Positions 1 through 17,806 of a DNA stretch of 42,472 nt are shown one piece after another. This DNA is from a virus: the IMG/VR virus record IMGVR_UViG_3300040808_000654, positions 1-42,472 of that record; one strand, written 5' to 3'. Both the position numbers and the translations under genes were made by a program. Under the pieces are notes generated by a model, which saw only the letters and a list, made by a program, of their open reading frames with translations, made no database searches and was not told the origin of the DNA. How positions within the stretch are numbered: position 1 is the stretch's first letter; each line of letters begins with the position of its first letter.

Positions 1-1
1 G

Positions 2-370: not shown

Positions 371-377
371 GAACAAA

Positions 378-465: not shown

Positions 466-483
466 GAGTAGTGAGCGTTAATC

Positions 484-903: not shown

Positions 904-1225
904 GAAAAAAGGTGCTGCTCTCAGGGTAAAGCTGAAGCACATCGATGATCTTAACAGGCAGTTTCCGGAGCGGCGTTGGGTGACCCTACTGAGGATGCAC
1001 TTCCGACCAGTCGTCCCAGTACGACTCAATCCGGAGACGACAGAAATACTGCGAACACGCAACGGGCACGGGGACGAGGTCTGGCAGGTCGGCAGTGAGT
1101 TCATGACCAAGGACGAGGCAATCTATCTCGCCGAAAAGCTCAGGGTTGGAAAGACCCCGCCACTTTGGGGTACGATTGACGGGCGATTCGGCGACAGTTT
1201 CCTCGATGAAGAATACGGGGAGTAA
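827..1225 (+). CDS. Hypothetical protein between CsrA-like gene and integrase
   Basis: 132 residues, not recognised. The N-terminus is charged and Lys/Arg-rich (about residues 6-40), the middle is beta-like, and the C-terminus is acidic (FLDEEYGE). The ATG at 827 has GGTGAG eight bases upstream, but it lies 77 bases inside the preceding gene in another frame. No better start codon is seen before residue 60, so the overlap may be real. It ends two bases before the integrase start, so the two are probably co-transcribed and translationally coupled. A role in integration or excision control is possible from position only. Confidence 0.55.
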   Translation: MDLSELERLRARKYQEGTESGKTPDKKKGAALRVKLKHIDDLNRQFPERRWVTLLRMHFRPVVPVRLNPETTEILRTRNGHGDEVWQVGSEFMTKDEAIYLAEKLRVGKTPPLWGTIDGRFGDSFLDEEYGE

Positions 1226-1227
1226 CT

Positions 1228-2298: not shown

Positions 2299-2311
2299 AA
2301 CCTAACTGAAT

Positions 2312-2334
2312 AAGGCTGAAGTTAGCCTTTTTTT
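2312..2334 (+). terminator. Rho-independent terminator after integrase
   Basis: Stem AAGGCT (2312-2317) and AGCCTT (2324-2329) with loop GAAGTT and a run of seven T (2328-2334). It begins 13 bases after the integrase stop. Confidence 0.85.
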
Positions 2335-2340
2335 ATCAAT

Positions 2341-2381
2341 AGCTAGATAGGAATCTGTCGCCGCAAATCCAAGCTAGATAG
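2341..2381 (+). repeat. 10-bp direct repeats near attP (candidate arm-type sites)
   Basis: AGCTAGATAG occurs at 2341-2350 and again at 2372-2381, 31 bases apart start to start (three helical turns), 70-110 bases from the attP core. This spacing and position suit arm-type integrase sites, but there is no direct proof. Confidence 0.35.
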
Positions 2382-2413
2382 TGTTTTTTAATCATGATCA
2401 CGGGAGATAAATC

Positions 2414-2671
2414 ATGAATGTTCAGCCAATGAAAACCGCCGCAAAGCTCTGCTTTTTTCCTCAACCCAACGGTCAAATATCGGGGACCGCGTTTTTTGAC
2501 GACAGGTACGCGGCACTGGCTACCGAGAAAAGGCTGGCCGCGCTACAAGACTGGATCGACAGCCTGACAGAGATTAAAGAGATGGAAGTCATGATGAGAG
2601 ATCAGGGCAATCATCTTAGCGGAGATACCTCAGAAGGCCTTTACTGGGTAAGGAATTCAGAAGAGTCCTGA
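2414..2671 (+). CDS. Small hypothetical protein
   Basis: 85 residues, ATG with GGGAG nine bases upstream (good ribosome site). Not recognised. No signal peptide or membrane segment. The N-terminus MNVQPMK resembles that of the leftward 88-residue protein next door (MNVVPIK), and both have a similar helical stretch, so the two may be distant relatives. It ends 12 bases before the end of that convergent gene. Likely an accessory gene of the lysogeny region. Confidence 0.65.
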   Translation: MNVQPMKTAAKLCFFPQPNGQISGTAFFDDRYAALATEKRLAALQDWIDSLTEIKEMEVMMRDQGNHLSGDTSEGLYWVRNSEES

Positions 2672-2683
2672 ATTATGCGAGGG

Positions 2684-2950
2684 CTACTCTTCGGGGTAGT
2701 CCTCTTCCGCAATCTCATCCGACATCTCGAACAGGCTATCCAGACAGGCCTTCAACTCCATGCCCTGAATCGCGCTGAGTGCGGCGATGATCTCAGGCAG
2801 ATCCCAGTCACCACCATAGACCACCGCTGAGTCCATATCAGGAACATCAGTGAAGGCATAGAACTTCGTCGCCTCCCCTGAGAGAAGCATCTCTCGAAGC
2901 CTATCAAGCTGCTCGATAGCCTCCGCGTTCTTGATCGGGACCACGTTCAC
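2684..2950 (-). CDS. Small acidic hypothetical protein
   Basis: 88 residues from a GTG start that overlaps the stop of the DUF1289 gene by four bases (GTGA), which argues for translational coupling. The protein is strongly acidic with a tail EIAEEDYPEE. Not recognised. Phage early proteins of this type often bind or mimic nucleic-acid partners, but nothing specific can be claimed. It forms a two-gene leftward unit with the DUF1289 gene. Confidence 0.65.
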   Translation of the reverse strand: MNVVPIKNAEAIEQLDRLREMLLSGEATKFYAFTDVPDMDSAVVYGGDWDLPEIIAALSAIQGMELKACLDSLFEMSDEIAEEDYPEE

Positions 2951-3183
2951 CCTAGCTTTCTCGGAGTCTTCTCGACGTGACAGGTGTGGCGTATCGCGAA
3001 GTCGCGCTTAGCCAGATCGATAACGACCAGTTTCTTTTCGACGTCGGTCATCTGGTTCCACTCGGAGATCTCCTCCTGAGTGCGACCACACCCTTTACAC
3101 ACTACGTCACCAAAGATCGTTGCGGAACACCACCCATTGCAGGGGCTGTCCGACAGCGATGTTACTTCCCCATTGAGATCCAT
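2947..3183 (-). CDS. DUF1289 family zinc-binding-like small protein
   Basis: 78 residues, ATG preceded by a near-perfect AAGGAGG. Residues 13-45 follow the DUF1289 pattern: SPCNGWC, then VCKGCGRTQEEI, then W and M before EK, with four cysteines (15, 19, 29, 32) fitting a zinc site. DUF1289 proteins are small, common in Proteobacteria, and of unknown function; one on a phage suggests capture from a proteobacterial host. The gene starts a leftward two-gene unit opposed to the neighbouring rightward genes, with a promoter candidate at 3219-3244. Confidence 0.85.
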   Translation of the reverse strand: MDLNGEVTSLSDSPCNGWCSATIFGDVVCKGCGRTQEEISEWNQMTDVEKKLVVIDLAKRDFAIRHTCHVEKTPRKLG

Positions 3184-3218
3184 CTTGACCTCCTTCTGAG
3201 AACACCATCACAGCTCCT

Positions 3219-3244
3219 ATTATACAGCCAAATGGGCAGGTCAA
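3219..3244 (-). promoter_or_regulatory. Putative promoter for the DUF1289 unit
   Basis: On the minus strand a perfect -10 TATAAT (3219-3224) lies 36 bases before the DUF1289 ATG, with TTGACC at 3239-3244. The spacer is only 14 bases, short for sigma70, so the -35 may not be used. Confidence 0.5.
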
Positions 3245-3362
3245 AGCGGGTTTCGGTGATTCACATTTTTCCGCCCAAAAAATATTTTGCGGTAATTTTC
3301 ACGCCCATAAATCAATCACTTAGCTTTGTCTAATGGTCGTAATTAGGAATTTTTTTGACCAA

Positions 3363-3439
3363 TTTATGCGGGCTACAGGCCCACCAAATCCCTGTTTTTG
3401 GGGTGCAAGGCCCAGTGTTTATGCGGGTTTCAGGCCCAC
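3363..3439 (+). repeat. Pair of 22-bp operator-like direct repeats
   Basis: TTTATGCGGG-CTA-CAGGCCCAC at 3363-3384 and TTTATGCGGG-TTT-CAGGCCCAC at 3418-3439 differ at two bases. Each contains an imperfect palindrome GGGC/GGCCC. They lie 55 bases apart, just upstream of a rightward promoter candidate, so they could be repressor or activator sites. Confidence 0.6.
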
Positions 3440-3474
3440 AATCCAAGGAAAATAGGATTTCGGAAAAGTACGTT

Positions 3475-3483
3475 TGATACAAT
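3475..3483 (+). promoter_or_regulatory. Extended -10 promoter candidate
   Basis: TGATACAAT fits the extended -10 pattern TGnTATAAT with one mismatch. No good -35 is seen. It would start a leader that carries the hairpin at 3520-3548 before the 76-residue gene. Confidence 0.4.
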
Positions 3484-3519
3484 GATCACATCACGCGCAT
3501 TGTGACGTGTGAGAAAGGG

Positions 3520-3548
3520 GCCGGTGGGAGCACCACCTCCACACCGGC
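3520..3548 (+). promoter_or_regulatory. GC-rich leader hairpin
   Basis: GCCGGTG (3520-3526) pairs with CACCGGC (3542-3548), and inside it GGAG (3527-3530) pairs with CTCC (3537-3540) around loop CACCAC, leaving one bulged A. No T tract follows, so this is not a simple terminator. It sits 32 bases before the start codon of the downstream gene and may protect or regulate the mRNA. Confidence 0.55.
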
Positions 3549-3580
3549 AGAGGCATAGGAACAATCTGGAGGAAAGACCC

Positions 3581-3811
3581 ATGCCAGCACGAAATGATAC
3601 ACCCAATCGTATCCGCAAGATACCCACGCACCGCAAGGTGAAGTACCTCATGAACGAGGAGGAGTGGGCGCGGAAGATCCATGACCATTACTTCAAGCAG
3701 ACTGATGAGGCAGGTACGACTGTCTACCTGTCAGACCTCTGGGCATTCAACACCGAGATCGACAAGCTGGACATCACGCTTGGCGAGTTCCTCGACAGGG
3801 ACTGGAGATGA
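3581..3811 (+). CDS. Small hypothetical protein with structured leader
   Basis: 76 residues. The ATG at 3581 has GGAGGAAAG seven bases upstream, so it is preferred to the in-frame ATG at 3509, which lies before the leader hairpin. The N-terminus is basic (RNDTPNRIRKIPTHRKVKY), and the rest is acidic and helical (TLGEFLDRDWR at the end). Not recognised. No membrane segment. It stands alone between a promoter candidate and the convergent late operon. Confidence 0.65.
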   Translation: MPARNDTPNRIRKIPTHRKVKYLMNEEEWARKIHDHYFKQTDEAGTTVYLSDLWAFNTEIDKLDITLGEFLDRDWR

Positions 3812-3816
3812 GTTCT

Positions 3817-3839
3817 GTGGAGGCGGCGGGAGTTGAACT
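3817..3839 (-). other. tmRNA 3'-end-like fragment (possible second attachment or scar)
   Basis: The minus strand reads GTTCAACTCCCGCCGCCTCC then A, like the T-loop, 3' T-stem and acceptor strand of a proteobacterial tmRNA. The 5' T-stem strand does not pair with it, and the CCA is incomplete (CCACAG). It is not a functional tRNA or tmRNA. tmRNA genes are common phage attachment targets, so this may be an old att remnant. Confidence 0.35.
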
Positions 3840-3873
3840 GACTCCTGAAAGCTAGCAATACCGCCAAACTACA

Positions 3874-3897
3874 GGGGCACGTCTAAATTTGTGCCCC
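3874..3897. terminator. Hairpin between convergent transcription units
   Basis: GGGGCAC (3874-3880) and GTGCCCC (3891-3897) form a perfect 7-bp stem around a 10-base AT-rich loop. It lies between the end of the rightward 76-residue gene and the end of the leftward late operon. The T tracts on both sides are weak, so the terminator role is inferred from location. Confidence 0.45.
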
Positions 3898-3912
3898 CAT
3901 TTGTACCCCCAA

Positions 3913-4002
3913 TCAGTAACCCTTCTTTGCCTTCTTCTTGGGGGCCGCTTTCTTCTTGCCCTTCTTCATTCGCTTGCCTTTGCATGGCTTGCCGTCGTGC
4001 AT
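3913..4002 (-). CDS. 29-residue Lys-rich peptide
   Basis: MHDGKPCKGKRMKKGKKKAA and nine further residues: 13 Lys and one Arg out of 29. A good ribosome site (GGAGGAAG) precedes the ATG, which lies one base after the stop of the 32-residue gene. Such a peptide would bind DNA or RNA electrostatically. It is the last gene of the late operon and one of four basic proteins in tandem. No enzymatic motif. The reading frame is short, but spacing and ribosome site support it. Confidence 0.6.
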   Translation of the reverse strand: MHDGKPCKGKRMKKGKKKAAPKKKAKKGY

Positions 4003-4003
4003 C

Positions 4004-4102
4004 TCACTTCCTCCGTCTGGGTTTGGCTTTCATCTTTCCAAGGCACTTGCCCGCCTTCTTGCACTTCATCTTCGTCTTGCAACCTGCGCATGGCTTGAAC
4101 AT
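4004..4102 (-). CDS. 32-residue Cys/Lys-rich peptide
   Basis: 32 residues with 11 Lys, 3 Arg and four Cys (5, 8, 14, 20) as CAGC then C and C, which could hold one zinc. GAGGAG lies six bases before the ATG, and the start overlaps the stop of the 86-residue gene by one base (TAATG). The same coupling pattern is used throughout the late operon, which supports it as a real gene. Function unknown; a zinc-stabilised nucleic-acid-binding peptide is plausible. Confidence 0.6.
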   Translation of the reverse strand: MFKPCAGCKTKMKCKKAGKCLGKMKAKPRRRK

Positions 4103-4362
4103 TACTTGCTCCTCTTCGCAGTCTTCCTGCGTTTCCCCGACGCGGTAACGTCGTGCTTTACCTTGGCTGGCCCAGTCTTCTTTGACTTAGACCTAGCCTT
4201 CTCCGCCGCAGTCATCTTTGCTGCAACTTTTTTTGGTCGGCAGGATGGGTAGGGCCGCTTCTTTTTTTCCTTTCCAGATCGCCCACATTTCTTGCCGGTC
4301 TTGAGGTCTACCCAGTCTTCTTTAAACCATTTGGTCAGTCCGCCCTTCGGCTTGCTAGACAT
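4102..4362 (-). CDS. Basic protein with WVDLKTGKKCGRS motif
   Basis: 86 residues if started at the ATG at 4362; a GTG nine bases upstream is also in frame, but the ATG has GGGTGG at proper distance. The N-terminal 45 residues carry a conserved-looking motif (KGGLTKWFKEDWVDLKTGKK, then CGRS and YPSCRPKK) that I recognise from marine phage hypothetical proteins. The C-terminal half is a Lys/Arg/Ala/Ser tail like histone H1 tails. Probable nucleic-acid-binding protein. It overlaps the preceding 56-residue gene by a few bases. Confidence 0.7.
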   Translation of the reverse strand: MSSKPKGGLTKWFKEDWVDLKTGKKCGRSGKEKKKRPYPSCRPKKVAAKMTAAEKARSKSKKTGPAKVKHDVTASGKRRKTAKRSK

Positions 4363-4525
4363 AGGTTCCACCCCTGCGCTTGTACTCTTTGGTCAGCCAC
4401 CCAGAGGCGTAGGCTGAAGGCCAGACCTTGAACTTTTTCTTGGCCTCGGCCCTGACTCGGGCATACAGCGCCTTGTTTTTTGGCGTAGCTCCGCTTTTCT
4501 TTTTGGGCTTTGCTTTCTTGGTCAT
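4355..4525 (-). CDS. Small basic protein with KVWPSAYASGWLTKEYKRRG motif
   Basis: 56 residues from the ATG at 4525, which has AAGGAG upstream and overlaps the stop of the 157-residue gene as ATGA. The longer upstream extension of this frame antisenses real coding and is rejected. The Lys-rich N-terminus is followed by YARVRAEAKKKFKVWPSAYA and SGWLTKEYKRRGGTYV, a motif family I know from marine phages and some large viruses. Function unknown. Basic charge and neighbours suggest DNA condensation or a minor virion role. Confidence 0.75.
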   Translation of the reverse strand: MTKKAKPKKKSGATPKNKALYARVRAEAKKKFKVWPSAYASGWLTKEYKRRGGTYV

Positions 4526-4995
4526 TGGCTTGCTCCTTGGATAAAAGCAACTGTCCCCCAGATGATTCCTCCCGACACGATTAGGCCCGTTAAGATGAAC
4601 GCGATGTCGAGCCTTCGCTGCTTTGCCTTTCTTCTGCGATAGACAATCCGCTCGCGCTTGGCTCTGATGTCCTTGCGCATCTGCATCATTTCGCGATAGG
4701 TCTCGACGCCATACGCCCAAGTGATCAGTTCTCGGATCTGCTTCTCTTGCTCCTCGACTTTCTTCTTAGCGATTACAGCGTTCAGCGCTTGCTCTTCTAC
4801 GCTAGCCCCATCGAATACTTTCTTGAACAGCGGAGGATTCTCTGCCTGCTCCTCTATGTGCTTTATATCGCTAACGATCGTGAACCACTGGCCCAGCTTC
4901 TGCGCGACGTGTTCGATCTCAGACCCGCGAGCGACCATACTCTCCACCATCTTGAATGCGGTGCTAGCCATGGCGACCATACTGAGCGGGTCCAT
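4522..4995 (-). CDS. Coiled-coil protein with C-terminal membrane segment
   Basis: 157 residues. The N-terminal MDPLSMVAMASTAFKMVESM is followed by a helical coiled-coil region (about 45-125) rich in Lys, Glu and Arg. A single hydrophobic segment (about 129-152, LDIAFILTGLIVSGGIIWGT) ends the protein. It starts two bases after the stop of the giant protein gene. A related layout occurs in marine podophages near ejection genes; it may be a membrane-linked virion or lysis factor. I cannot assign a named family. Confidence 0.7.
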   Translation of the reverse strand: MDPLSMVAMASTAFKMVESMVARGSEIEHVAQKLGQWFTIVSDIKHIEEQAENPPLFKKVFDGASVEEQALNAVIAKKKVEEQEKQIRELITWAYGVETYREMMQMRKDIRAKRERIVYRRRKAKQRRLDIAFILTGLIVSGGIIWGTVAFIQGASQ

Positions 4996-4997
4996 GG

Positions 4998-7900
4998 TTA
5001 CCTCGTCGCTTCGCGGTAGCGCTTATTGAATCGGTCGAACAGCCTTTGCATTTCGGCTTCGATTTTCTGGACTTGATCGTAAGCCTTGACGGGATCTTTC
5101 TGGGTCTTTTCGATTTGCTTCTTCTGCTTTCTCAGCTTGCGAAGTTGTTTCTGGGTTTCTTTGTACAGAGGCTCAAGCCTAGCCACCGAGCCGAACTCGC
5201 GCATGAACTCAAGGCGCTCCTTGCCTGTCGTTTCTTCGGCCTCCTTAAAGACCTGCGTGGCTGAGTCTATGTAGCTGTAGTAGTCCAGCTTGTCTGAATA
5301 ATCAGACGGCTCTCCATGGAAGTATCGAACGATAGGCACGTTGGACAAAGTGATTTCTTCGTTCTCCGGACTAACCGCCTTCGCGTAGAGGTCAACTGAT
5401 CTATTGACGAATCGACCAAGGCCTCCGAAGAGATACTCTTGCACGTACTGCATTCCATCTGGCGACAGGTCTGCCCATCCAGATCGGTACTCAGATCCAC
5501 CAGTAACTTCGTTCAGCAGCTCCGCAACAAACTTGTAGTGCTCACCAGTAGATCTTTTCGACCTGTTCGAGTCTGGTATTGGCGGCTTAATCAGCGGGTT
5601 GTCTTCTATGAAGATTGGAGCGCCAAAGAAGTTTCTGTTTGTTGCGAAAGCAACGACAGGCTCAGTGATGGTCGGGGCCAGAGACCCAGCAGCTAGCGCA
5701 GCGACCTCACCAAAATCATCTGCCCGAGCTGCTGTCCCGACAAACGCAAGAGGCGGTGGGAGCAGATGGTGAGCAAATGATGCGGTGATTTCTGCGGCAA
5801 CATCAGCCTCATCTTTGGTCTCGTTCAGGTATTCCGCACCCACCCTTCCTAACGTATGGAAGAAACCGTACCCGTAAGGCATCGGAATCTGAGCGAACGA
5901 CTTGCCGTCTCCGAGCACGATGTTCCATGACATCAGATGGTCGTAGTCGGACAGATCGTTGTAGAGAGACTCGCCGTCCTCATCTTCGTCAGCGGCGTTG
6001 AGGTTGTACTCCGTGACCATGTACGCGATGAGCGCAATGCTCGCCGCGCCGATCTGAGCCTTCGTGAGACTGTCGTCAGCCGTCTTGCCTGACATGGCTT
6101 GAGCGATGTTAGCCGTGCCCTGCACCGCCGCATTAAAGAACAAGTAGAACAGGTTAAGCCCGTCAGAGATCTCGCCTTTGCGGTTAAAGTTGACCGTTAG
6201 GTTCTTCGCAAGGTTCGCGGATTTCTGTACCGACACGCCCGCCTCTCTGGCAGAGACGTAAGTGGCAAAACGGATAGCGTTCTCTGATGCGGTATTGAGG
6301 TCTTCTACGAATCGCAGTCCGCGTTTGCCTTTAGCGGTAAGAGGTCCATCCGTGACCATTGCGTACAGCGCGTCTCTTTGCTCTTCGATATCCTTTGTCA
6401 GAGTAAGTCCGGTTGGAGCACCGGCCTTCGTGTACTCGTCGTAGTAGGCGTCGTACTCGTCGTCTGCTTTACCGCCCCTGATGTTCTTCCAGTATGCTTT
6501 GGTGGCAGGGATGTACCGGCGCAGAATTTCACTCGTCAGGTTTTCGCCCTCAGTCAGTCCTCCTGCCTTGCTCTCTTCTGCAAGGTTGTACATCAGGCCA
6601 GTCTGCAAATCGCGGAACGGGTTGATCACGAACCAGCTTGGGTTCCAGTTAATCAGCATATTCCTGCGGAAGTTCTGGAACGTGCGCATCTTGTCTGTCA
6701 GCGACTTCATCAAGCCGTTCGCCGATGACATATCGTCTGCGTCGAGCTGCTGCATCACCCTGTTCAGCGCGTCATTCTTGATTTCGATGAAGACTTCGTA
6801 GCCGTCCTCTTTGACTGTCAGGAATCTAGGATCGCCGTTTTGTCGCTTGGCGATTCGCATATCAGGAGCCTTCATGCGCTGCTGAATTACGTTGCCCCTA
6901 GCGTCAGTTGCTCTGGGGTTCATCGGGTACGCATCTTCAGGGCGATAGACGGTTAGCTGGTCGCTTCCAGCTCCCGACATTTCGTCTGCCAGAGCCAAGA
7001 ACTGACGAGCAGGCTCTGCCCTTCGAGACCTGACGATCTTTTGCTCTGAGTCCGCAATAGCAAACAGGACGGGGTTTTCTGACTGAGACTGCCTGCCCAG
7101 CGCCTTGAACACCTCTTTGCCTGACAGGTTGAATCCTTTCGGTAGATTCCCTCTCGGGGGAATGTACGTCTCTCCATCCTTGGATGTCGCAAATCCTTTG
7201 AGCGGAACGTAGAACTGGTATCGATCCTGCCACGCATCAACCGTGTCTTCGTCAACCAGCCCAAAGTCCTTCATGCGCTTGCGATTTGCCGCGAGCATAT
7301 CGTAGACAATCTGCGCGGCCTGATTCATAGCCGCATTTTCCATCTCGCCTATCAGGCGCTTGGCATCTTCCGTAGACATACCGGAGCCGCCTTCTGGCAT
7401 CTCTGGGTTAATCTCAGCGATGTAATTGTTGCGCTCTTCAGCGTGTCTCGCGATGAGATAGAGGCCAAGGTCGTCTACATCTATCTCGTTCTCCCTCATG
7501 ACCTCCGCAAGGGGCGCAATGAAGTCTCTCTCAAGGTCATCCATGTCCCTTTTTTGCTTGCCGGAGTGGAGAGTTTCGCCAACGTATCCGCTTAGTTCAT
7601 CTGGCAGCTCTTTCAGCCCAAGAAACTTAGCCGCCGCCTCTTCAAATTTCTTGAGCGGAAGGTACTTGTCTTGGATTGTTCTGAGCCAAAGCTCGCCACG
7701 GGTCTCATCGTGAAGCGTGAACTCGTTATTGGCAGGCTGGCCGTTGAGAAGTTCGCCCTTGTTTGCGGCCTCCTCATGGGTATTGGTCTGGTTGGTGATG
7801 CGGCGGAACATGGGCATTCCGTCCGTCTTGATCTGCTCTGCAACTTCTGGCGGGATTCTTACCAGCCATAGGCCATTGCCTCGCCAAATTCGCTTCTCAG

Positions 7901-10900
7901 TATTCGGGTCTTGCCCCCAAAGAGGATTGTCATCGCGAACAAGCTCGTTGTCCGGCGTCATCATGACTGGATCTTCTCCAGTCAATCTTTTAAAGATAGC
8001 GGGAAGCTTGTTGTCATAGATAAAGCGATACCCCTTCTCGTATATCTCATCCCACCGATTTATTAACCGCGTAGCGTTTGAAAACGCTATTGCAGTCTTG
8101 CCTTCCATTACTGCATCACGAAGGATTCCTTTGGCAGATACATCAAGATAAGCATCGTTACGGAAGGGCGAGTCAGGTGGGGCGTTTTTAAGCCGCCGCA
8201 TTTTTCGCTCAACTTCGCCCAGATCCTCTTTAACTTTTTCAAACATCTCGGCAGTGCGAATGAACTTTTCATAGGCAGATCTGGTGTCTGCCTGCTGCTG
8301 ATTTGCAGGCTCTCCGGTAGGGGCGTAGCCAAACATTTCCTTAAATCTCGGCTCATAACCTCTGACGATGTAAGAAGGCGTATAAAGAAAATCATCGATA
8401 AATTTTTCTACCGCAGATTCTGATACGTCGAACTCTCCAACAAAATAATCAGAGTTAAATTGAGTCATTCCGTAGCGAACGCCTAAGTCTCCGAGGGCCG
8501 CTTCCAGTGCCGTTCTTCCGTCTACCCCCGAATCAGGCTCATTGGCCCTTCTTAATTGTCGGAGGACTATCTCTAAGCCCTGATTTGATAGGTATTTGCC
8601 TATCATTTTCTCGAAAGCATGGATTCTTTCAGCATCGTCTTTAGTCTCCGTCCTGTCGGATGGAAACCTCCTTCCCGCAGCCGCGTCAGACGCATCTACA
8701 AGAGCCTCAAGGTCTCTGCTGTAAGCAAAGATCGCTCCCTCTCTGTCGCGCTTGAACCGTTCCTGATCCTGCGTAAGCTCTTCTATCGCGACCGCATCGA
8801 ACGGAGATCCGGCTTCCCTGATGGCGTTGTGCCAATCGGACTGGTTTTCTTCAATAGCCAGCGCTTCGCCAAAGGGCGTTTCGCGATCAGTCGCAAGAAC
8901 ATTGAACAGCGTGTTGTACCCGAAATGCCCTCCGTCAAATTTATTGTCCGGAGCGAGCCTGTTGTATCCGAGGGTGATTATCTTTTCTCGGTATCTAGTG
9001 ATGGTTCTGGGATCTATTTTCAGATGCCCAAAAAATTCAGTATCTCCAGAGTCAATCCCGCCTAATCCTTCCTCCGTGGCATAAACCTCAAAAGCTTCTA
9101 TGGCATCGTCAAGACTATAAACAACGTCAAACAGCTCATTGCCATTGTTAAGGGTGCCTGTGAATCCACCGCCCTCAGAACCTCTAATCTCCCCTATGTC
9201 GTCATCTCTTCTGCCATTTACTATGGAGTAGACAACCTGCTCAAAATAGGGGTCAGCCATGTAGTCTTCTTCAGCTACTTGCCAAGCTATGTCATTTAGC
9301 TCGTCTTCAAACTGCGCCTGTAATGTCTGATTAAGATCCATGCCTCGGCTATCGAAATACTCTGCGAGATCAGAAGCACTAAACATTGGATTAAGGCCTG
9401 AGTCCAAACCAAGAGAATCCCCAAGCCTGTCCTCCAAGTATTCTGTAAGAGCAAATCTATGGTTTGCCACTAGCTTGCGAAGAGTCTCTCCCGACCCATA
9501 GTCATCCCACTCGTTGCTCCGCATTGAATACTGAATGTCGTCCCAGAGATGCTCGTAATACTCAAATCCATCAAGAATATTACGCTCACCAAGCATGATT
9601 TCGGCTGCTCCGATGCCGGAGTACCTGACGTATTCTTCTAGGTCAGGAGCAGAATCTTGGAAGTAGTCAATTATTTCTTCCTTAGTGAACGTATCTGCTG
9701 GCCTACCGGACATCTCTGCAAGCTGACTTATGTCGAGCCGATATAGCGTAGCTCGGTTGAGCTCCATCATCAGCTCGCGAATAGGGACGTTGTCTCTTTC
9801 TTCGCCGTCGCCCTTCCTGCTTATCTCCGAAGCGAGGAACGCCTGATCTCGCAAGGTTTCTAATTTTTCTTTTGTAACCTCTGGACGAGGATCCGAGTCT
9901 TTAAAGTTGGAGAAGTAATCCGTCAGCAACGAAACGATCCTGACTCCTTTTCCTGCGGGGGTTAAATCCTCACCAGCCTCGCGCATCTCTTTTTCGACCC
10001 GCTCATGTACGCGATTAACGTAAAACGTCTTGACCACATCATCATCGTTCATTGACTCTGGATCAGTAAGGAGCTGCTTTATCTTGGAGAACTTCGCCTC
10101 TTCTTTTTTAAGGCCGCGCCCAGTCAAAAATGACAAGATCCGGTCGCCCTTGACACGGCCTTCTGGGTTCTTTTTGGAAGGCTGAAATATTTTATCGCCC
10201 GCATCAATTACCATCTGCTCAGCATTGCTGTAGAGACCCAACTGATCTCGGGCTGCTCTATCCTTGACGCGGCTGAGCATTGGCTGACCGTCCTGACGAG
10301 CCTGATTGTTGTTGAAGTAATCTTCGCGAGCATTCTTAGCAATGAACGCAATGTCGCTCGCCCGCATCTTGGACAATCTTGCGAACCCATTGCTTCGCAG
10401 CCAGTTGCGGATAGCGCCGATCACCTCTCGGATGCGAGACCTCAGAGTCTTGCCGCCCTGCTCACCCGTATAGGCCAGCATTTCGCTGACCATGACGTAG
10501 TTTCTGGTTTCTTTGCTGTAGCGAGGCTGGTTGTAGGTTTCCTCGTAAGTCTTCAGGCGCTCTCTGATGCCAAGCTCATCAACGATTCGGTCGAATCCTT
10601 TCTGCCCACCCATTGCCTCGAACATTGCATTCAGCGCTTTTGAGACACTTACGTCTGAGAACATCTGATTGATACCGCCGTGAGTACCTTCATGAAGTAG
10701 CGCTCGCTCCAGTCGAGAAGCGCTTTTCATGCGGCTTTTGACAATGTAGATTTGGTTCCTATGGCTTATCGCATCAATATCAGATCCATCGGATCCCTGC
10801 TCGCGCACAAAATCCTGAAGCTCCGCCGGAAGCTGGTCGAACCTATCGACGACGTTGATGAGGTCACGGGTTTCTTGGTTCCCACCGACGACCCTGTCAA

Positions 10901-13283
10901 TAACCGTATTGAGTTCTTCGTCAGTAACGACAGGCCTGCGAGTCGCTCCTCTAGGCGCTGAGTCTCGGCGCATCATTGGAGTGTCGTCTTCCAGCATGGT
11001 GCGCACATCTTGGGCACCCATCCTGTCGTCAGCCTCTAGCATTCCTTGAACGTCAGAAGCGCCCATTCGGGGGTCCAAAATGTTCTGAACGTCAGCGGCA
11101 CCCATTCGACCATCATCGGGCTGTCGGGCAGATTCGATCTGGCTGTCTAAATCGCTAAGCTGCTGCTGTCTTCGTTCTTCCGTCTCCGAGAACTGGCGCT
11201 GAAGCGTGTCCGCCGCCTGCGGAGAGTCGGTATCGATAACAGCGCGAGTGTTTCCAGCCTCTATGACTCGGCCCTGACTGGCCTGTGTATCGACAGGATC
11301 CTGCTGTTGCGTCTGAGCCTGCGGGTTCGTAATTGTGCGGATAGCGTCACCGATTGCACTGGCTAAGGATGTGGCAACGCGGTCTGCGATATCGACATCT
11401 GCCATATCGGTCATGACAGCGGGCGCTGGAGGCGGAACTACGTCCTGCTGGGGCGTGAAGTCAGTGGGCTGAAGCACCTGCGGCTGGCCCTCCTGCGCTC
11501 TGTCGGCCAGATTCCCCTCGATATCCTGCTGAGTGGGAGCCTGAGAGAGCGTTTCTTGAGTTTCTTGCAGGGCCGTAGCGCCTTCTGCTTGAAGACGAGC
11601 GGCATCAATCTGCTGAGCCATGCGCTTTTTGAATACGCGCTCTTCGCCCGCAGTCGGGCCTTCCACAACCTCCGCTGTTACTGACTCAACCTCGCCATTT
11701 TGGTCGTAATTAGTGCTGATATATCTGAATGGCTTGTCGCCCCTGTCGGGTGACGTAAAGGTCTGGTCTTCTGCATTGAAGCGGACCCGTGAGTCGCGCT
11801 CCATTTCGACTCGATTGTCCTGACGCTCAACGCCGATATCCTGAACGCGCTGTTCTCCAGCCTCGCCTCTGGACTTGATCGTTACCTTCTCTCCGGTGGC
11901 AAAGTCGCGAACAAAGAATTTGCCGTCTTCGTCCTGCCTGAGAACGCCTTCTGCCTCACCTTGACTTACGACCTGTCCAACAAGGTTCTTGAGCTGGGGA
12001 TTGAACTCCCTTCCAAGCCGATCCGCCTCTTCACCATACTGAGCGTCCTGCTCTGGAGTCAGATCTTGGCCCATGTAGAACTGATCTGGGATGATGTTCT
12101 GAACGGCCTCAATGGAGACCGTGCGATTCATGGTCGCCATGCCTTCGTAGGCGTCTAGGTAGTCAGCGTAAGAGTCGAAGCCTGCTTGCTGAGCCTCAAG
12201 CTCCTCAGATTGCGGGGTATCGACAGGCATATTGCCTTCCGAGTCAGGCATACCACTTTGCTGCGGATCCTGCTCCTGAATCTCTGGTGCAGATCTAGGC
12301 TTGTAGAAAGCTCCGCTGATTCCGCCCATGCCGCCACCGCCGACAAGGCCAGCCGCGAAAGCGTTTAGATACTGTGATCTCTGCTGCTCTGTGGGATTAT
12401 TTAGGGCGTCGAAGAAAGACTCTCCGTAAGTCTTATAGCCACCCTGTGGGTCATTAAACATACCCACTGCGGTAGCCTGAAGCAGCTCCTGCGCGGCTTC
12501 TGTTGCCCCCTCAATGCCGCCTGTTCTTACGCCCTCGATAAAGGTTCTTTTAACTAGGCCTTTGTTGCGCAAAAGCCTGTCTGCCATTAACTCTTTGAAG
12601 GGATTGAAGGCCTCGTCTGGGAGGACTTTTTTCAAGATTGACATTGGCGCAAGGGCGTCTAGCGCACCAGCCACAATACCTGTCCCCAATGCCAGCGCCG
12701 GATCTTCTATGCCGCCACTTTCTTCGTATACGTTGGCAAATGTCTCGCCAGCGTTCATGGCGACTGAGGTGCCAAATGCGCCTGTGCCGGTTGCGAACCT
12801 TCTTAGCTTTGCGGTGCGGCGATTCTGCTCTTTCTTTACCATCGCCTTCGTAAAGGCCTCACCAGCTTTCTTCTTTACGTCACGCTCTACGCTTTCTTTG
12901 ATGAGCTTCTTCGCGCCATACTGAACTAAGCCGCCAGTTACTCCGCCGCCAAGCACTGCCGTGCCGATACTGGGCAACGCCTGACCCAGCGTGTACGTCA
13001 TCCATTGGACAGCATCTTCAGCGCCCTCAATATCTTCAACGCGCTCGAAATCACCGCCGATCTCTGCGGCTTCCTGCATCTTTTGGTTGTAGTATTCGAG
13101 GTACTCGTTTGTGGCGTCATCGTCGCCAATAGCGCTGCTAATTAGCGCTGGCAGTCCCCCGCCAAGCAGGCCTTGGGTCTGTTTTAGGCCAGACGAAAAG
13201 CCAGCAATAAACTGGGTTGAGCCTTCGTCTTCTTCCTGAAATGAGCTAGGTTGATCAGAGCCAATATAAAATGGTTTTGGCAT
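4998..13283 (-). CDS. Giant polyvalent virion protein with zincin-type metallopeptidase motif
   Basis: 2761 residues, a fifth of the window. Regions: N-terminal helices with glycine-rich hydrophobic segments (about 70-330); a Gln/Asp-rich linker (330-780) with three copies of RMGAxDVxxML (about 726-770); a zincin-like site LLHEGTHGG (His864, Glu865, His868) with a candidate third ligand Glu in SEMLAY (about 928); an ENQSDWHNA motif near 1478, like the EIQSDWHQ motif of polyvalent phage proteins; and a C-terminal segment (about 2200-2690) resembling large polyvalent protein domain LPD38 (NPFRDLQTG, MPYGYGFFHTLG, NRNFFGAPIF). The end is a basic coiled coil. Such proteins are packaged and ejected with the DNA. 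The peptidase may cut cell-wall crosslinks, host proteins or itself. It follows four ejection-type genes. Confidence 0.85.
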   Translation of the reverse strand: MPKPFYIGSDQPSSFQEEDEGSTQFIAGFSSGLKQTQGLLGGGLPALISSAIGDDDATNEYLEYYNQKMQEAAEIGGDFERVEDIEGAEDAVQWMTYTLGQALPSIGTAVLGGGVTGGLVQYGAKKLIKESVERDVKKKAGEAFTKAMVKKEQNRRTAKLRRFATGTGAFGTSVAMNAGETFANVYEESGGIEDPALALGTGIVAGALDALAPMSILKKVLPDEAFNPFKELMADRLLRNKGLVKRTFIEGVRTGGIEGATEAAQELLQATAVGMFNDPQGGYKTYGESFFDALNNPTEQQRSQYLNAFAAGLVGGGGMGGISGAFYKPRSAPEIQEQDPQQSGMPDSEGNMPVDTPQSEELEAQQAGFDSYADYLDAYEGMATMNRTVSIEAVQNIIPDQFYMGQDLTPEQDAQYGEEADRLGREFNPQLKNLVGQVVSQGEAEGVLRQDEDGKFFVRDFATGEKVTIKSRGEAGEQRVQDIGVERQDNRVEMERDSRVRFNAEDQTFTSPDRGDKPFRYISTNYDQNGEVESVTAEVVEGPTAGEERVFKKRMAQQIDAARLQAEGATALQETQETLSQAPTQQDIEGNLADRAQEGQPQVLQPTDFTPQQDVVPPPAPAVMTDMADVDIADRVATSLASAIGDAIRTITNPQAQTQQQDPVDTQASQGRVIEAGNTRAVIDTDSPQAADTLQRQFSETEERRQQQLSDLDSQIESARQPDDGRMGAADVQNILDPRMGASDVQGMLEADDRMGAQDVRTMLEDDTPMMRRDSAPRGATRRPVVTDEELNTVIDRVVGGNQETRDLINVVDRFDQLPAELQDFVREQGSDGSDIDAISHRNQIYIVKSRMKSASRLERALLHEGTHGGINQMFSDVSVSKALNAMFEAMGGQKGFDRIVDELGIRERLKTYEETYNQPRYSKETRNYVMVSEMLAYTGEQGGKTLRSRIREVIGAIRNWLRSNGFARLSKMRASDIAFIAKNAREDYFNNNQARQDGQPMLSRVKDRAARDQLGLYSNAEQMVIDAGDKIFQPSKKNPEGRVKGDRILSFLTGRGLKKEEAKFSKIKQLLTDPESMNDDDVVKTFYVNRVHERVEKEMREAGEDLTPAGKGVRIVSLLTDYFSNFKDSDPRPEVTKEKLETLRDQAFLASEISRKGDGEERDNVPIRELMMELNRATLYRLDISQLAEMSGRPADTFTKEEIIDYFQDSAPDLEEYVRYSGIGAAEIMLGERNILDGFEYYEHLWDDIQYSMRSNEWDDYGSGETLRKLVANHRFALTEYLEDRLGDSLGLDSGLNPMFSASDLAEYFDSRGMDLNQTLQAQFEDELNDIAWQVAEEDYMADPYFEQVVYSIVNGRRDDDIGEIRGSEGGGFTGTLNNGNELFDVVYSLDDAIEAFEVYATEEGLGGIDSGDTEFFGHLKIDPRTITRYREKIITLGYNRLAPDNKFDGGHFGYNTLFNVLATDRETPFGEALAIEENQSDWHNAIREAGSPFDAVAIEELTQDQERFKRDREGAIFAYSRDLEALVDASDAAAGRRFPSDRTETKDDAERIHAFEKMIGKYLSNQGLEIVLRQLRRANEPDSGVDGRTALEAALGDLGVRYGMTQFNSDYFVGEFDVSESAVEKFIDDFLYTPSYIVRGYEPRFKEMFGYAPTGEPANQQQADTRSAYEKFIRTAEMFEKVKEDLGEVERKMRRLKNAPPDSPFRNDAYLDVSAKGILRDAVMEGKTAIAFSNATRLINRWDEIYEKGYRFIYDNKLPAIFKRLTGEDPVMMTPDNELVRDDNPLWGQDPNTEKRIWRGNGLWLVRIPPEVAEQIKTDGMPMFRRITNQTNTHEEAANKGELLNGQPANNEFTLHDETRGELWLRTIQDKYLPLKKFEEAAAKFLGLKELPDELSGYVGETLHSGKQKRDMDDLERDFIAPLAEVMRENEIDVDDLGLYLIARHAEERNNYIAEINPEMPEGGSGMSTEDAKRLIGEMENAAMNQAAQIVYDMLAANRKRMKDFGLVDEDTVDAWQDRYQFYVPLKGFATSKDGETYIPPRGNLPKGFNLSGKEVFKALGRQSQSENPVLFAIADSEQKIVRSRRAEPARQFLALADEMSGAGSDQLTVYRPEDAYPMNPRATDARGNVIQQRMKAPDMRIAKRQNGDPRFLTVKEDGYEVFIEIKNDALNRVMQQLDADDMSSANGLMKSLTDKMRTFQNFRRNMLINWNPSWFVINPFRDLQTGLMYNLAEESKAGGLTEGENLTSEILRRYIPATKAYWKNIRGGKADDEYDAYYDEYTKAGAPTGLTLTKDIEEQRDALYAMVTDGPLTAKGKRGLRFVEDLNTASENAIRFATYVSAREAGVSVQKSANLAKNLTVNFNRKGEISDGLNLFYLFFNAAVQGTANIAQAMSGKTADDSLTKAQIGAASIALIAYMVTEYNLNAADEDEDGESLYNDLSDYDHLMSWNIVLGDGKSFAQIPMPYGYGFFHTLGRVGAEYLNETKDEADVAAEITASFAHHLLPPPLAFVGTAARADDFGEVAALAAGSLAPTITEPVVAFATNRNFFGAPIFIEDNPLIKPPIPDSNRSKRSTGEHYKFVAELLNEVTGGSEYRSGWADLSPDGMQYVQEYLFGGLGRFVNRSVDLYAKAVSPENEEITLSNVPIVRYFHGEPSDYSDKLDYYSYIDSATQVFKEAEETTGKERLEFMREFGSVARLEPLYKETQKQLRKLRKQKKQIEKTQKDPVKAYDQVQKIEAEMQRLFDRFNKRYREATR

Positions 13284-13293
13284 TCTTACGGCC

Positions 13294-14796
13294 TCACGGG
13301 TTGCCGAACTTTGGAGATCCTGCTGCTGACCTGTCTTCGCGAACGTCCTTTCTGGTTCTCATGCGAGATCCCTCGACGTAACCGCGACCTGCCAATAGCC
13401 TTACTAGCTCCTCTTCGGTATCCGAGGTGGGCCTGCCGTTGTCGTTTGTGGTAGCAATCAAACGCAGCATTTCAGCGTCCGTAAAGACGATTTGCGCGTC
13501 TCCCAGAGGCTTCACTCTCGACAGAAGTCGCTCTAAGGGCTGGCGTCCCTGATCTATGTACTTCTTCAGCTCCACCCTGTAGTCGGTATTGTCTCGACCA
13601 GATCCGTACAGGACCGCAGATTCCGCGTAATTGCGAATATCGGCATCAGTCATTTCTTTGTCGGGCTTGCTTTTGAAGTAAGTCCTGATGTTTCCGCTGA
13701 CGTCGGCTACCTTGGCCTCTCTCATTTGAGCTTCCATGGCCGCGACGTCTGCGTTGTATTTCGGTCTTCCGCCCTCACGATTGTTGATCATGGCGTTTTC
13801 CGCAATCGGGCGAATCCTGTTTACTTCTTGGCTTAACACGCTGAGAGACGCCACGCCGTCAAAGACTTCCTTGATCGGAGTGCTTGCCTGTCCAGCAGAA
13901 GGATTACGGTTCTCTGTCACGTCCGCCGGATAGAAATTTACTTGGTTAGTTTCTGGGTCTCTCACAGCAACAATCACTGACGCTCGTAGATTTCCCTCCT
14001 CATCAGCAGCGATTTGGTTGGTGCTGACATTCTCGACCACTGACCCTTTGTACTTTTGCGCCATAGGATTTGTAAAAGAGTCGTCAACAGTTTTCCCAAC
14101 CAAGCCGCCTCGCTTTGAGACAAAAATCTTGTCAAAAGCTTCCAGCATTACAGGGTGCGAAGGGTCGATTTCTCCAGTCTGAAACTGCCTTGAAAGCTCT
14201 GAGGTCAGGCCTGCAAGGGTCTCCTGAAAATTTGGATCCATGATCTTCAGCAGGGACATCGCGTTACCTGACGTTTGATCTCCGATCTGCACAGGCGTAT
14301 CGGTTATCTGAATTTGCTGAAGAATTTGCTCATCTGTGAACTGGCCACTATCAATCATGGAAAACACGTTTTGATATGCCGCCGCAGCCGTCTGTTGGTA
14401 CTCGTCTTTTGCCGCATTTTTATTTGCAAGAATGGCTGCGTTAGATAGACCTTCTTGCTTGAGAAGCTCGGTTTGCGCTCTTGCTTCAGCAATATCTGTG
14501 TTTTGCTGAGTGATGCCCTGCTGGAATTTTCTGGTTTCCGCCGCCGCCTCCGCCGCCGCCTCTTTGGCATCTATGTCCGCTTCAAGCTGCCTCCGGCTTA
14601 ATCCATACGCCCTGTCCAGCTTGGCCTGTGTTTCTTGAAACTGCCGCTCATCCCTAGCTGCCGCTTCAGTCAATCGGCGCTCTTCAAGAGCCATCTCTCT
14701 CTCGGTGTTGTACTGGTTTTGAACCAGACCAAATCCCTGAGTAAAGCCGTCAGCGAATCCGCCGTAAGAGGATGGGTAATATGATCTTCGAGCCAT
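13294..14796 (-). CDS. Internal virion (ejection) protein with coiled coil
   Basis: 500 residues, AGAGGT before the ATG. Residues 1-25 are Tyr/Gly/Phe-rich, followed by a long Glu/Ala/Arg/Gln coiled coil (about 30-115), then a mixed alpha/beta region and a charged C-terminus. No enzymatic motif is seen. Size, composition and location just before the giant protein match podovirus ejection proteins such as T7 gp15 in role; sequence homology cannot be shown here. Ten bases separate it from the giant gene. Confidence 0.65.
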   Translation of the reverse strand: MARRSYYPSSYGGFADGFTQGFGLVQNQYNTEREMALEERRLTEAAARDERQFQETQAKLDRAYGLSRRQLEADIDAKEAAAEAAAETRKFQQGITQQNTDIAEARAQTELLKQEGLSNAAILANKNAAKDEYQQTAAAAYQNVFSMIDSGQFTDEQILQQIQITDTPVQIGDQTSGNAMSLLKIMDPNFQETLAGLTSELSRQFQTGEIDPSHPVMLEAFDKIFVSKRGGLVGKTVDDSFTNPMAQKYKGSVVENVSTNQIAADEEGNLRASVIVAVRDPETNQVNFYPADVTENRNPSAGQASTPIKEVFDGVASLSVLSQEVNRIRPIAENAMINNREGGRPKYNADVAAMEAQMREAKVADVSGNIRTYFKSKPDKEMTDADIRNYAESAVLYGSGRDNTDYRVELKKYIDQGRQPLERLLSRVKPLGDAQIVFTDAEMLRLIATTNDNGRPTSDTEEELVRLLAGRGYVEGSRMRTRKDVREDRSAAGSPKFGNP

Positions 14797-14806
14797 AGCT
14801 GACCTC

Positions 14807-15469
14807 TTAGAAGTCGAATAGTTTGTTGAGGAGGAAGAACGCGCCCAAGCCGATGGCTAGGGGAGCGGCGACCGTGGCTAAAACAGACCCTGCTGGGGCG
14901 GCGGCGGCACCTGTTCCTGCGGCTGCGCCAGCACCTGCGCCAGTGCCAGCACCTGCCGCTGAAGCGCCTCCAACGACTCCGCCTCCAGTAGCAAGTGCGC
15001 CTGTTGGCGTAGCGACGGCTCCAGCGGCTCCTCCAGCCACAGCACCTGAACCACCAAGCGCCCCAGCCGTAGTTCCCGCTGGGCTTGCTAGTGCGCCTAA
15101 TGATGCTGGGTTTGATGCCGCAGTGAGAGCCTGACCAGCAGTCATTGGAGCACCAGCCGCAGGAGCAAGAGCTGGAGACTGGTTTACAAGAAGCTTTCCG
15201 CCAGAAAGCACTGCATCGCCAGTTAAAGCTGGAGCCTGAGATGGGGAAAACAGTCCGGAGGCGTAATTAGCTATGTCTTCTCCATACTCCCTCTGGACAT
15301 AAGCCCCACCGACGCCTAACGCGGTGCCCGCAAGCTGTGCTCTTTGAGCTTTCTCCTGCGCCAGCATTTGCTGTCTGATGGCCTCACGCTCTGCCTCTTC
15401 TTGAGACATGGCCTGAAGACCAAGCATTGCCTTATTTCGGAGATTGTCTCCGGTAGCTATTAACGTCAT
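14807..15469 (-). CDS. Ala/Gly-rich internal virion protein with terminal hydrophobic segment
   Basis: 220 residues. A charged helix (20-45, many Glu, Gln and Arg) is followed by a low-complexity Ala/Gly/Thr/Pro stretch (about 90-200) and a hydrophobic C-terminal segment (APLAIGLGAFFLLNKLFDF). The ATG overlaps the stop of the previous gene (ATGA). Podovirus ejection proteins that form the channel through the outer and inner membranes are often of this type, so a membrane-inserting role is likely but inferred. Confidence 0.6.
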   Translation of the reverse strand: MTLIATGDNLRNKAMLGLQAMSQEEAEREAIRQQMLAQEKAQRAQLAGTALGVGGAYVQREYGEDIANYASGLFSPSQAPALTGDAVLSGGKLLVNQSPALAPAAGAPMTAGQALTAASNPASLGALASPAGTTAGALGGSGAVAGGAAGAVATPTGALATGGGVVGGASAAGAGTGAGAGAAAGTGAAAAPAGSVLATVAAPLAIGLGAFFLLNKLFDF

Positions 15470-16110
15470 GAGCCTGTCCCTTGTTGTGCGCGAGACTTCA
15501 TTCCTATGGACCCGAGTCCACCCCCAAGAAGTGCGATCTTCCTGTCAACGTCTCTGTCTCTGGTGTCGTTCATGCCGCCAACCAGAGCGCTGGTCGTGGC
15601 GTTTGTGTTGTCTAGTTCCTTGCCCATAACGCCGTATCGCTCGAACTGGCGCGTGTACTGGTCTCTTGCACTCTGAGCGCCGCCCATGACAGCGTCTCTA
15701 GTGCGCTCCATGTCGCCCTCAAGAAACGTGGTGCCGGTGCGAGTAATCGTGCCCGCCAAGTAATCTTCAATCGGCGCGAAGCGAGTTAAGTAGTCTTGGG
15801 TCTGGGCGCGGATGATGTCTGCAAATAAGCGAGAAGCGCCCTCTTTGTCGTCTCCCAGATAAGCGTTTGGGTTGATTGTTCCGGTGGCTGCAAACTGTGC
15901 GGCTCTTGCCTCTTGCTCTGCGTCACCTGCCACGCCTCTGATCACATCTCCAAGTAAGCCGCCACCCGAGTAAGACTCGCCGCTCACTCCGGTAGTGGCA
16001 GGCTGGTAATTAGGCCCGTAAGTTGGAACGCCATCATCCCCAAAGTAAAACTGTGAAACCGCATCTCTGGCGTCTGGCCCTAGCTGGCCAATGAGAGTCG
16101 CAAAGTCCAT
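15466..16110 (-). CDS. Putative internal virion protein
   Basis: 214 residues, not recognised by family. It begins with a one-base overlap with the stop of the preceding gene (TGATG). An N-terminal mixed region with Gly/Ser/Tyr stretches is followed by charged helices (about 85-190) and a short Gly-rich end. No signal peptide or transmembrane segment. It belongs to the run of four genes upstream of the giant protein, which together look like the DNA-ejection module. Confidence 0.55.
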   Translation of the reverse strand: MDFATLIGQLGPDARDAVSQFYFGDDGVPTYGPNYQPATTGVSGESYSGGGLLGDVIRGVAGDAEQEARAAQFAATGTINPNAYLGDDKEGASRLFADIIRAQTQDYLTRFAPIEDYLAGTITRTGTTFLEGDMERTRDAVMGGAQSARDQYTRQFERYGVMGKELDNTNATTSALVGGMNDTRDRDVDRKIALLGGGLGSIGMKSRAQQGTGS

Positions 16111-16697
16111 CAGGGTCCGCCCTTGTCTTTCCCGAAGTAGTTAAATGCGTAGCCAGCGCCCATGCCTGCGGCAGTACCAAGTGCGTTCTGGCCCTGCATT
16201 TGATCAGCAAAATCCGTCATGGCCTGAGATCTGGCCTTGTCTTCCGCTGCTCTGGTGAGGCCGATCTGGCCCTGCATCGCCTCGCTCGCAACGCCCTGAC
16301 CCATCTTGATCACGTTCTGGACGCCACCGAGGTATCGGTCAGTGTTGTTGATGCCTGCGTCTGCGGCGAGAAGGCCTCTTGCGGTGCCAAGCTTCGAGTA
16401 CCCGTCCTGTAAGCCGCCAGAAAAACTTCCGGATGTGGGCGTCACTCCGCCCTTAGCGAGCAGTCCTGCCTGCAACTTCTGAAGCTGCGGGGAAAACTCT
16501 CGCTGTGCCGCATTAGATCCGGCGTCCATAGCCTTTTGGTACTGAGACGCATCGTCAGCCTGAAACACCTGCTGGATGTACATATCCTCCAGCGGGCGGA
16601 ATACGCTCTGGTAGCGATTGAAGTATTGAGCCGACTGCTCCGCTAACGCTCTGTATGCTGGGGTTTCATCTGGCTGTTCTCCGCCTCCACCACCCAT
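16110..16697 (-). CDS. Putative internal virion protein (P22 gp7/T7 gp14-like role)
   Basis: 195 residues, start MGGGGGEQPD after AGGAG. Helical, Gln/Ala/Gly-rich with many small residues (about 60-190) and a Gly/Ala-rich, mildly hydrophobic end (ALGTAAGMGAGYAFNYFG). Composition and position are like the small ejection proteins of podoviruses. No motif allows a firm assignment. Confidence 0.6.
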   Translation of the reverse strand: MGGGGGEQPDETPAYRALAEQSAQYFNRYQSVFRPLEDMYIQQVFQADDASQYQKAMDAGSNAAQREFSPQLQKLQAGLLAKGGVTPTSGSFSGGLQDGYSKLGTARGLLAADAGINNTDRYLGGVQNVIKMGQGVASEAMQGQIGLTRAAEDKARSQAMTDFADQMQGQNALGTAAGMGAGYAFNYFGKDKGGP

Positions 16698-17248: not shown

Positions 17249-17806
17249 CTACCACGTTATAAGGTTAAGTTCTGCCTCGGTTTCCGCCGCATTTATCTGC
17301 GCTCTCAGGCCTCTAGCCTTAACGTGACAGGCGTCAATGTGTGACGCTAGCGCCTGCCCTACCTGCTTCAATTCTGTGGCATTCAGGCTAACCGTGGAGT
17401 TATCGGACAAAGTCCATACCATTGTTAGCGTTGAATCTAACTGCGCTCTCTGAACTGCACTCATAATCCTAGACTGGCTGCGCTCATCGCACTGAAACGT
17501 GTGTGAGTTCCAATCAAATGTGCTGAACTCTTCTTGGTTTCTACAAGATTTGATGCGACTCCATGCCTGACTCTTCGCTTCATCGAGGTTCAGAACCCAT
17601 GACGCGGACGTATAATCGAAGTAATGAGCGCCAGAAGGCCTGTCACCCTTCGGCCTGATTTCTCCAGAGGAAACGTAAAAGTCATCAGGGTCGCCATCTA
17701 AATCTACCTGCAAATAGCTTCTGCCAGCCACAACAGCCGCAGTGGCATTCTTTTTGACAGAAGTAATCCGGCCATCAGGCTCGTAAAATACTGCTGCGAA
17801 TCTCAT
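17249..17806 (-). CDS. Tail-fibre assembly chaperone-like protein (DUF4376 type)
   Basis: 185 residues, overlapping the stop of the 933-residue receptor-binding gene by ATGA. The C-terminal 110 residues follow the DUF4376 pattern: a W..I...R segment, FDWNSHTFQCDERSQSRI, a WTLSDNSTVSLNATEL segment, then VGQALASHIDACHVKARGL. Such proteins follow fibre genes and help fold or attach the fibre. Partner here is most likely the preceding J-like protein. Confidence 0.75.
   Translation of the reverse strand: MRFAAVFYEPDGRITSVKKNATAAVVAGRSYLQVDLDGDPDDFYVSSGEIRPKGDRPSGAHYFDYTSASWVLNLDEAKSQAWSRIKSCRNQEEFSTFDWNSHTFQCDERSQSRIMSAVQRAQLDSTLTMVWTLSDNSTVSLNATELKQVGQALASHIDACHVKARGLRAQINAAETEAELNLITW

Follow-up and report, generated by a model that had tools for sequence, protein, structure and literature searches.

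The giant gene and its setting

The window, the whole 42,472-base stretch of DNA analysed here, is the IMG/VR virus record IMGVR_UViG_3300040808_000654. An open reading frame of 2761 amino acids, complete with ATG and stop codon, occupies the minus strand from position 13283 down to 4998; the plus-strand frame over 4998-13283 has many stops. The original prediction of a 2761-residue gene at 4998-13283 is borne out, and the minus strand is the sole detail that it left unstated. The giant and the cassette that it closes comprise the following features, in which L numbers denote relatives compared in this work.

4998..13283, minus strand: giant polyvalent LPD38 protein, 2761 amino acids (open reading frame; PF18857, E = 6.9e-35; phrog_14770, phrog_616 and phrog_10691), the final and largest gene of the ejection cassette
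5010..7721, minus strand: constant, family-defining C-terminal module, residues 1855-2758 (25-35% identity to other viruses' giants)
5328..5966, minus strand: LPD38 domain, residues 2440-2652 (PF18857, E = 6.9e-35)
7794..9293, minus strand: QSDW domain, residues about 1331-1830 (QSDW at 1481-1484; PPDSPFR; W...YD.KL), conserved in relatives
10014..10271, minus strand: small conserved domain, residues 1005-1090 (LYSNAEQ...), common to QSDW-bearing relatives
10284..10961, minus strand: predicted gluzincin-type metallopeptidase domain, residues 775-1000 (17-member alignment, AlphaFold, Foldseek, dN/dS)
10482..10484, minus strand: Glu934, predicted third metal ligand, invariant in 17 homologues and placed on the model's second conserved helix
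10680..10694, minus strand: HEGTH, residues 864-868, with two predicted metal ligands and the general base Glu865, invariant in 17 homologues
10977..11111, minus strand: tandem short motif (D)RMGAxDVQxMLExD, three copies, from sequence (four copies in L007, three diverged copies in L008)
10962..12278, minus strand: low-complexity linker, residues 336-774, from sequence
12294..13241, minus strand: Gly-rich N-terminal module, residues 15-330, hydrophobic at 197-217 (profile, hydropathy)
13294..14796, minus strand: phrog_601 cassette protein, 500 amino acids, adjacent to the giant on its upstream side (gene order as in L003 and L002)
14807..15469, minus strand: phrog_594 cassette protein (phrog match, gene order)
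15466..16110, minus strand: phrog_596 cassette protein (phrog match, gene order)
16110..16697, minus strand: phrog_611 cassette protein, also a weak match to phrog_8003, a virion structural protein

The N-terminal module is a candidate membrane or ejection module. The (D)RMGAxDVQxMLExD repeats sit just before the zincin and, outside L007 and L008, are absent from the other relatives checked; they are possibly a docking motif. Right after the stop codon of the giant begins a 157-amino acid protein (4522-4995, minus strand) that is charged and coiled-coil-like and has a C-terminal hydrophobic segment.

The virus encodes an SU10-type portal and adaptor and a phrog_267 capsid protein, which mark it as the podovirus that had been proposed, as well as a terminase and an integrase. 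The integrase is found on the plus strand within positions 1-4500, together with a gene-poor stretch, and no early or replication genes were recognised among the window proteins examined. Accordingly, the linear record probably represents part of a temperate phage genome. A genome scan for possible hosts returned five loci only, four of them on metagenome-assembled (MAG) contigs of mostly marine bacteria, which is too weak to name a host. Elsewhere in the window, a 933-amino acid fibre-like protein (17803-20604) carries 120-bp tandem repeats at 19050-19596 (minus strand), and matches a lambda J-type Ig domain and, weakly, CBM_5_12.

The cassette order phrog_611-596-594-601-giant is identical in PhiR5_2, a Stx-type phage, and in Vibrio D66. 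The C-terminal module of the giant is shared with gp69 of phage JC1 (26% identity, E = 1e-48), and that protein is present in CsCl-purified JC1 virions, where it is represented by 51 unique peptides and has a score second only to that of the capsid protein (PMC9144972). Because a homologue is a virion component and the five-gene cassette is conserved, the giant is probably packaged in the virion and delivered with the DNA, a reading well supported by homology and context that the description of it as an ejected protein had anticipated.

Family and modular architecture

The LPD38 match scores 121.3 bits against a gathering cut-off of 27, and the LPD38-like end that had been suspected is thus placed far over that cut-off. 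Beyond LPD38, a Pfam scan of the giant found nothing convincing. PHROGs 14770, 616 and 10691 together span residues 1855-2758, and this module is 25-35% identical to the corresponding part of giants from Vibrio phages, Stx-type podoviruses and Burkholderia phages of the Bcep22 type, as well as from one environmental phage and one virus of Methanosarcina.

The polyvalent class comprises phage polypeptides that combine several unrelated domains. The giant is of this kind, as had been proposed, given its LPD38 match and the independent histories of its zincin, QSDW and LPD38 modules. Of 69 giants, 26 carry a counterpart of its first 330 residues at their own N-termini, 28-45% identical in most direct comparisons, and among those 26 only L007 has the zincin of the window. 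Conversely, L070, L089, L091 and L094 have the window's zincin and QSDW domain and lack its N-terminal module; L085 also has both, and the 5' end of its gene is cut, so its N-terminal module cannot be judged. In L009 and L011 the C-terminal module is 56% identical to that of the window protein yet is accompanied by other HExxH motifs; one kind of C-terminal module is thus served by different zincin types. When the window protein is compared with that of L007, the zincin and the C-terminus are similar and residues 1001-1830 are saturated, a recombination mosaic. The giant is a polyvalent LPD38 protein of an already known kind, in which the C-terminal module stays constant and the enzymes of the middle part are swapped.

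The QSDW motif of the original prediction lies at residues 1481-1484, and its domain is conserved in L007, L008, L070, L085, L089, L091 and L094. By motif or profile it also occurs in L072-L075, L078, L081 and L083. None of the four carriers scanned has a Pfam match to this domain, and a literature search for "QSDW" returned plant genetics only among its ten top entries. The domain is often preceded by a small LYSxAE-type domain and diverges fast between otherwise close phages. An AlphaFold run of residues 772-1846 in one piece gave a pTM of 0.37, and the fold search was uninformative.

Two more specific assignments were considered and rejected. The window protein has no methylase or helicase match, which excludes it from the DarB antirestriction proteins, whose hallmark is an adenine methylase combined with an SF2 helicase. 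Nor is it an N4-type virion RNA polymerase, given that it has no match to a T7-like RNA polymerase domain and that the C-terminal profiles do not align.

The zincin domain

HEGTH at residues 864-868 is the sole HExxH in the giant. In searches of a phage collection, the zincin and QSDW fragments queried alone gave no matches, and relatives of both were found by scanning viral contigs with the whole protein and with alignments. A profile of the HEGTH domain detects homologues in many other giants, and these include HEXXXH forms (L035, domain E = 2.5e-20). Across 17 aligned members, which are 16-88% identical to the window sequence, the invariant columns are His864, Glu865, His868, Gly870, Glu934, Ala937 and Arg963, and none other. 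This set matches the pattern of an HExxH followed by a Glu-xx-Ala third ligand. The context of Glu934 is SEMLAY, and its helix fits the "glutamate helix" motif of gluzincins, (E,H)xx(A,F,T,S,G) (PMC7213743). The plausible third ligand that had been postulated along with the HEGTH site can thus be named as Glu934.

AlphaFold modelling on the 17-member alignment gave a core with pLDDT 71-91 and a pTM of 0.72; the final 60 residues of the construct have low confidence. The model is ordered as helix, strand, helix, two strands, the HExxH helix, more helices and the Glu helix, with HExxH and Glu934 both on helices. Its elements are H11-22, E32-35, E61-64, E67-71, H78-97 and H147-164, such that a three-stranded sheet and an N-terminal helix precede the HExxH helix. 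Iyer et al. describe an MPTase core of matching topology (PMC5512222). The top Foldseek match in the PDB is ArdC (6i89; probability 0.89, E = 0.15, which is weak alone), another gluzincin ranks fourth (probability 0.23), and no PDB match falls below E = 0.001. Among viral models, four are matched at E below 1e-3, the best at 2e-5, and those with names include helicase and large polyvalent proteins. The nearest structural neighbours of the model are ArdC and SprT-like gluzincins.

The domain is under strong purifying selection, with dN/dS of 0.11 and 0.13 for the window compared with L007 and L008, respectively. No Pfam peptidase family matches at E<=1 in the whole-protein scan. The invariant ligands, the predicted fold, the Foldseek matches and the zincin dN/dS together argue against a non-zincin fold around residue 864, one of the outcomes by which the original prediction could have failed. 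By model and alignment, the metallopeptidase domain is predicted to be real.

Zincin motifs accompany long giants

The comparative survey covered 91 non-redundant complete LPD38 giants among the matches listed, which were sampled by similarity, and scored each for an HExxH or HExxxH motif, whose presence does not prove a zincin in every protein. The motif is present in 78 of the 91 giants, compared with 2 of 91 reversed sequences and 3.8 of 91 shuffles of the same composition (about 4%), and therefore it occurs more often than chance would give. Among the matches listed, 76 of the 79 giants of at least 2000 amino acids have it (96%), versus 2 of the 12 shorter ones (Fisher p = 2.7e-9), although part of this association might simply reflect the greater number of domains of any kind, the commonest one included, in larger proteins. 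By length class, the counts are 0/4 below 1500 amino acids, 2/8 from 1500 to 2000, 11/12 from 2000 to 2500, 28/29 from 2500 to 3000 and 37/38 above 3000.

One short giant, L099 from Shewanella marina, was rejected as a zincin-less case: at 9592 its open reading frame starts inside its own zincin, where the gene is broken. The fair count for short giants is therefore 2/11. No HExxH-bearing open reading frame was found directly upstream of the other short zincin-less giants. Nine short giants have the C-terminal module without a zincin (L084, L113, L115, L118, L174, L180, L196, L199 and L205). The giant of L064 (7864), a Stx-type phage, is also broken, within its N-terminal half.

On the tree of giants, the zincin changes nine times. 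In independent pairs that differ in zincin, length differs in the same direction in about 5.5 and in the opposite direction in none, and in pairs that differ in both traits the two always change together, typically 6 to 0. The median sign-test p is 0.03, with a range of 0.03-0.125, and becomes 0.06 when pairs are chosen by length first. Two of the three long exceptions, L079 and L186, have a JAB/RadC-like H.HPSG motif, which occurs in 7 of the 91 giants overall, so perhaps another metal enzyme replaces the zincin in these two cases. From these sequence comparisons, the zincin appears to be dispensable for the delivery chassis but to accompany large cargo.

Possible roles of the zincin

The fold, the conserved ligands, the purifying selection, the family, the exchange of modules and the link between zincin and large cargo are computational results. 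Beside them stands a mechanistic reading, to which we give about an even chance: an ejected giant with exchangeable cargo, whose zincin most likely cuts in cis to free that cargo, with activity and action in cis both presumed. The C-terminal module with LPD38 and the Gly-rich N-terminal module would serve packaging and delivery. The middle of the protein (residues about 775-1830), with the gluzincin, the small domain and the QSDW domain, would be the exchangeable cargo. The giant would be packaged and then exit the virion together with the DNA. His864, His868 and Glu934 are predicted to bind a metal ion and Glu865 to activate water, and the gluzincin would most likely release the cargo domains by cutting its own chain, either while still inside the head or following entry.

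Giants that are poor in cargo and have no zincin argue against a role in packaging, DNA entry or the cell wall, and favour self-processing or release of an effector. Opening of the cell wall during DNA entry, one of the substrates originally suggested, is accordingly very improbable. Ejection proteins of other podoviruses do carry muralytic enzymes. However, no lysozyme, transglycosylase or other muralytic family matches the giant, the folds nearest to the domain are those of ArdC and SprT-like gluzincins, and small, cargo-poor relatives are without the domain, so a cell-wall hydrolase was rejected.

A role before release, in which the zincin trims or licenses the giant for packaging during assembly, is rather unlikely. 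Iyer et al. cite such processing before packaging for DdrB of phage P1, and the MPTase-containing region is needed for encapsidation of the N4 virion RNA polymerase (vRNAP), but the N4 vRNAP is packaged uncut (PMC5512222). Moreover, the nine short giants with the module and without the zincin indicate that the module itself is not zincin-dependent. We assign a similarly low probability to a fold that has been retained to bind metal or for structural reasons and is inactive as a peptidase. ArdC with a mutated metal ligand (E229A) still supports conjugation (PMC7213743), and the N4 C1 domain has an HExxH, with no activity described in the covered passages of its structure report. In the 17 aligned homologues, however, not only the metal ligands but also the general base Glu865 is invariant, down to 16% identity. 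The uncut N4 vRNAP, whose zincin is comparable, and the functional E229A mutant also weigh against the self-processing reading, since they imply that such domains can be dispensable or otherwise employed.

A host protein, for example one of restriction or another defence, might instead be cleaved in trans after ejection, which is somewhat more plausible than these two readings and still on the unlikely side. Polyvalent proteins are antirestriction-type effectors, ArdC, the closest solved structure, is an antirestriction protein, the zincin is under strong purifying selection, and zincin types differ between phages, as effectors do. However, the large giants come from very diverse viruses, and a single effector activity is unexpected in 96% of them, among the matches listed; moreover, ArdC left a tested restriction enzyme undegraded, with no protease substrate established (PMC7213743). 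Between the protein itself and a host defence protein, which had both been named as substrates, the comparative pattern leans toward self-processing; the association of zincin with cargo appears to fit self-processing best and a trans effector second.

With less confidence, the self-processing reading may be extended to LPD38 giants as a group. These would be self-processing polyproteins with a fixed chassis, interchangeable cargo and a replaceable metallopeptidase that becomes near-obligatory as cargo grows and that cuts after delivery, a generalisation that is possible but somewhat doubtful. If it is true, it helps to explain how a protein of ~300 kDa is useful after passing a narrow tail.

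Comparison with known systems

Zincins are the commonest domain of polyvalent proteins and occur in 36% of them (Iyer et al. 2017, PMC5512222). They are predicted either to process the polypeptide, whether before packaging, inside the head or following entry, or to attack proteins of the host (PMC5512222). The class to which the giant belongs and the idea of processing are thus already in print (PMC5512222), whereas the regularity between zincin and length among LPD38 giants is new here. The length and cargo pattern turns the general processing idea of 2017 into a specific, refutable prediction; the literature consulted contains no experimental test of zincin processing in LPD38 giants. Like the zincin proteins of Iyer et al., the window protein is a multi-domain giant with LPD38, an HExxH and Glu helix, a three-stranded core and a phage late-gene context. 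It differs in that its zincin matches no Pfam peptidase model (E<=1) and sits alongside a QSDW domain for which Pfam offers no model, and in having the HEXXH form in a clade that is otherwise mostly HEXXXH.

The phrog_616 giant of PhiR5_2 (2789 amino acids) shares the C-terminal module (31% identity) and the order of the five-gene cassette, and has two HExxH motifs upstream of the module. In contrast, its middle has LPD5, LPD1 and MuF_C instead of QSDW, and its N-terminus is not detectably related. The DarB-like proteins of Bcep22-type phages (BcepIL02 gp70, 4667 amino acids; JC1 gp69, 4515 amino acids) have the same C-terminal module with an HExxH zincin just before it. Sequence and record names suggest that BcepIL02 gp70 also has transglycosylase, methylase and helicase regions, whereas the window protein has none.

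ArdC of plasmid R388 (PDB 6i89) has the gluzincin fold that is predicted for the zincin and is its best, though weak, PDB match, but it is a small single-purpose protein with a single-stranded DNA-binding domain, and no sequence similarity to the window zincin was detected. The N4 vRNAP is likewise a giant ejected protein, and its recent structure shows an HExxH domain (C1) followed by a large helical domain (C2). A relation between C2 and the C-terminal module, plausible by eye, failed single-sequence and profile-profile tests, and the similarity between the zincins is marginal (hhalign probability 18%). The N4 vRNAP (L100) and the LPD38 giants have the same layout, perhaps through convergence or very remote kinship: a zincin and then a large C-terminal module, without detectable sequence homology.
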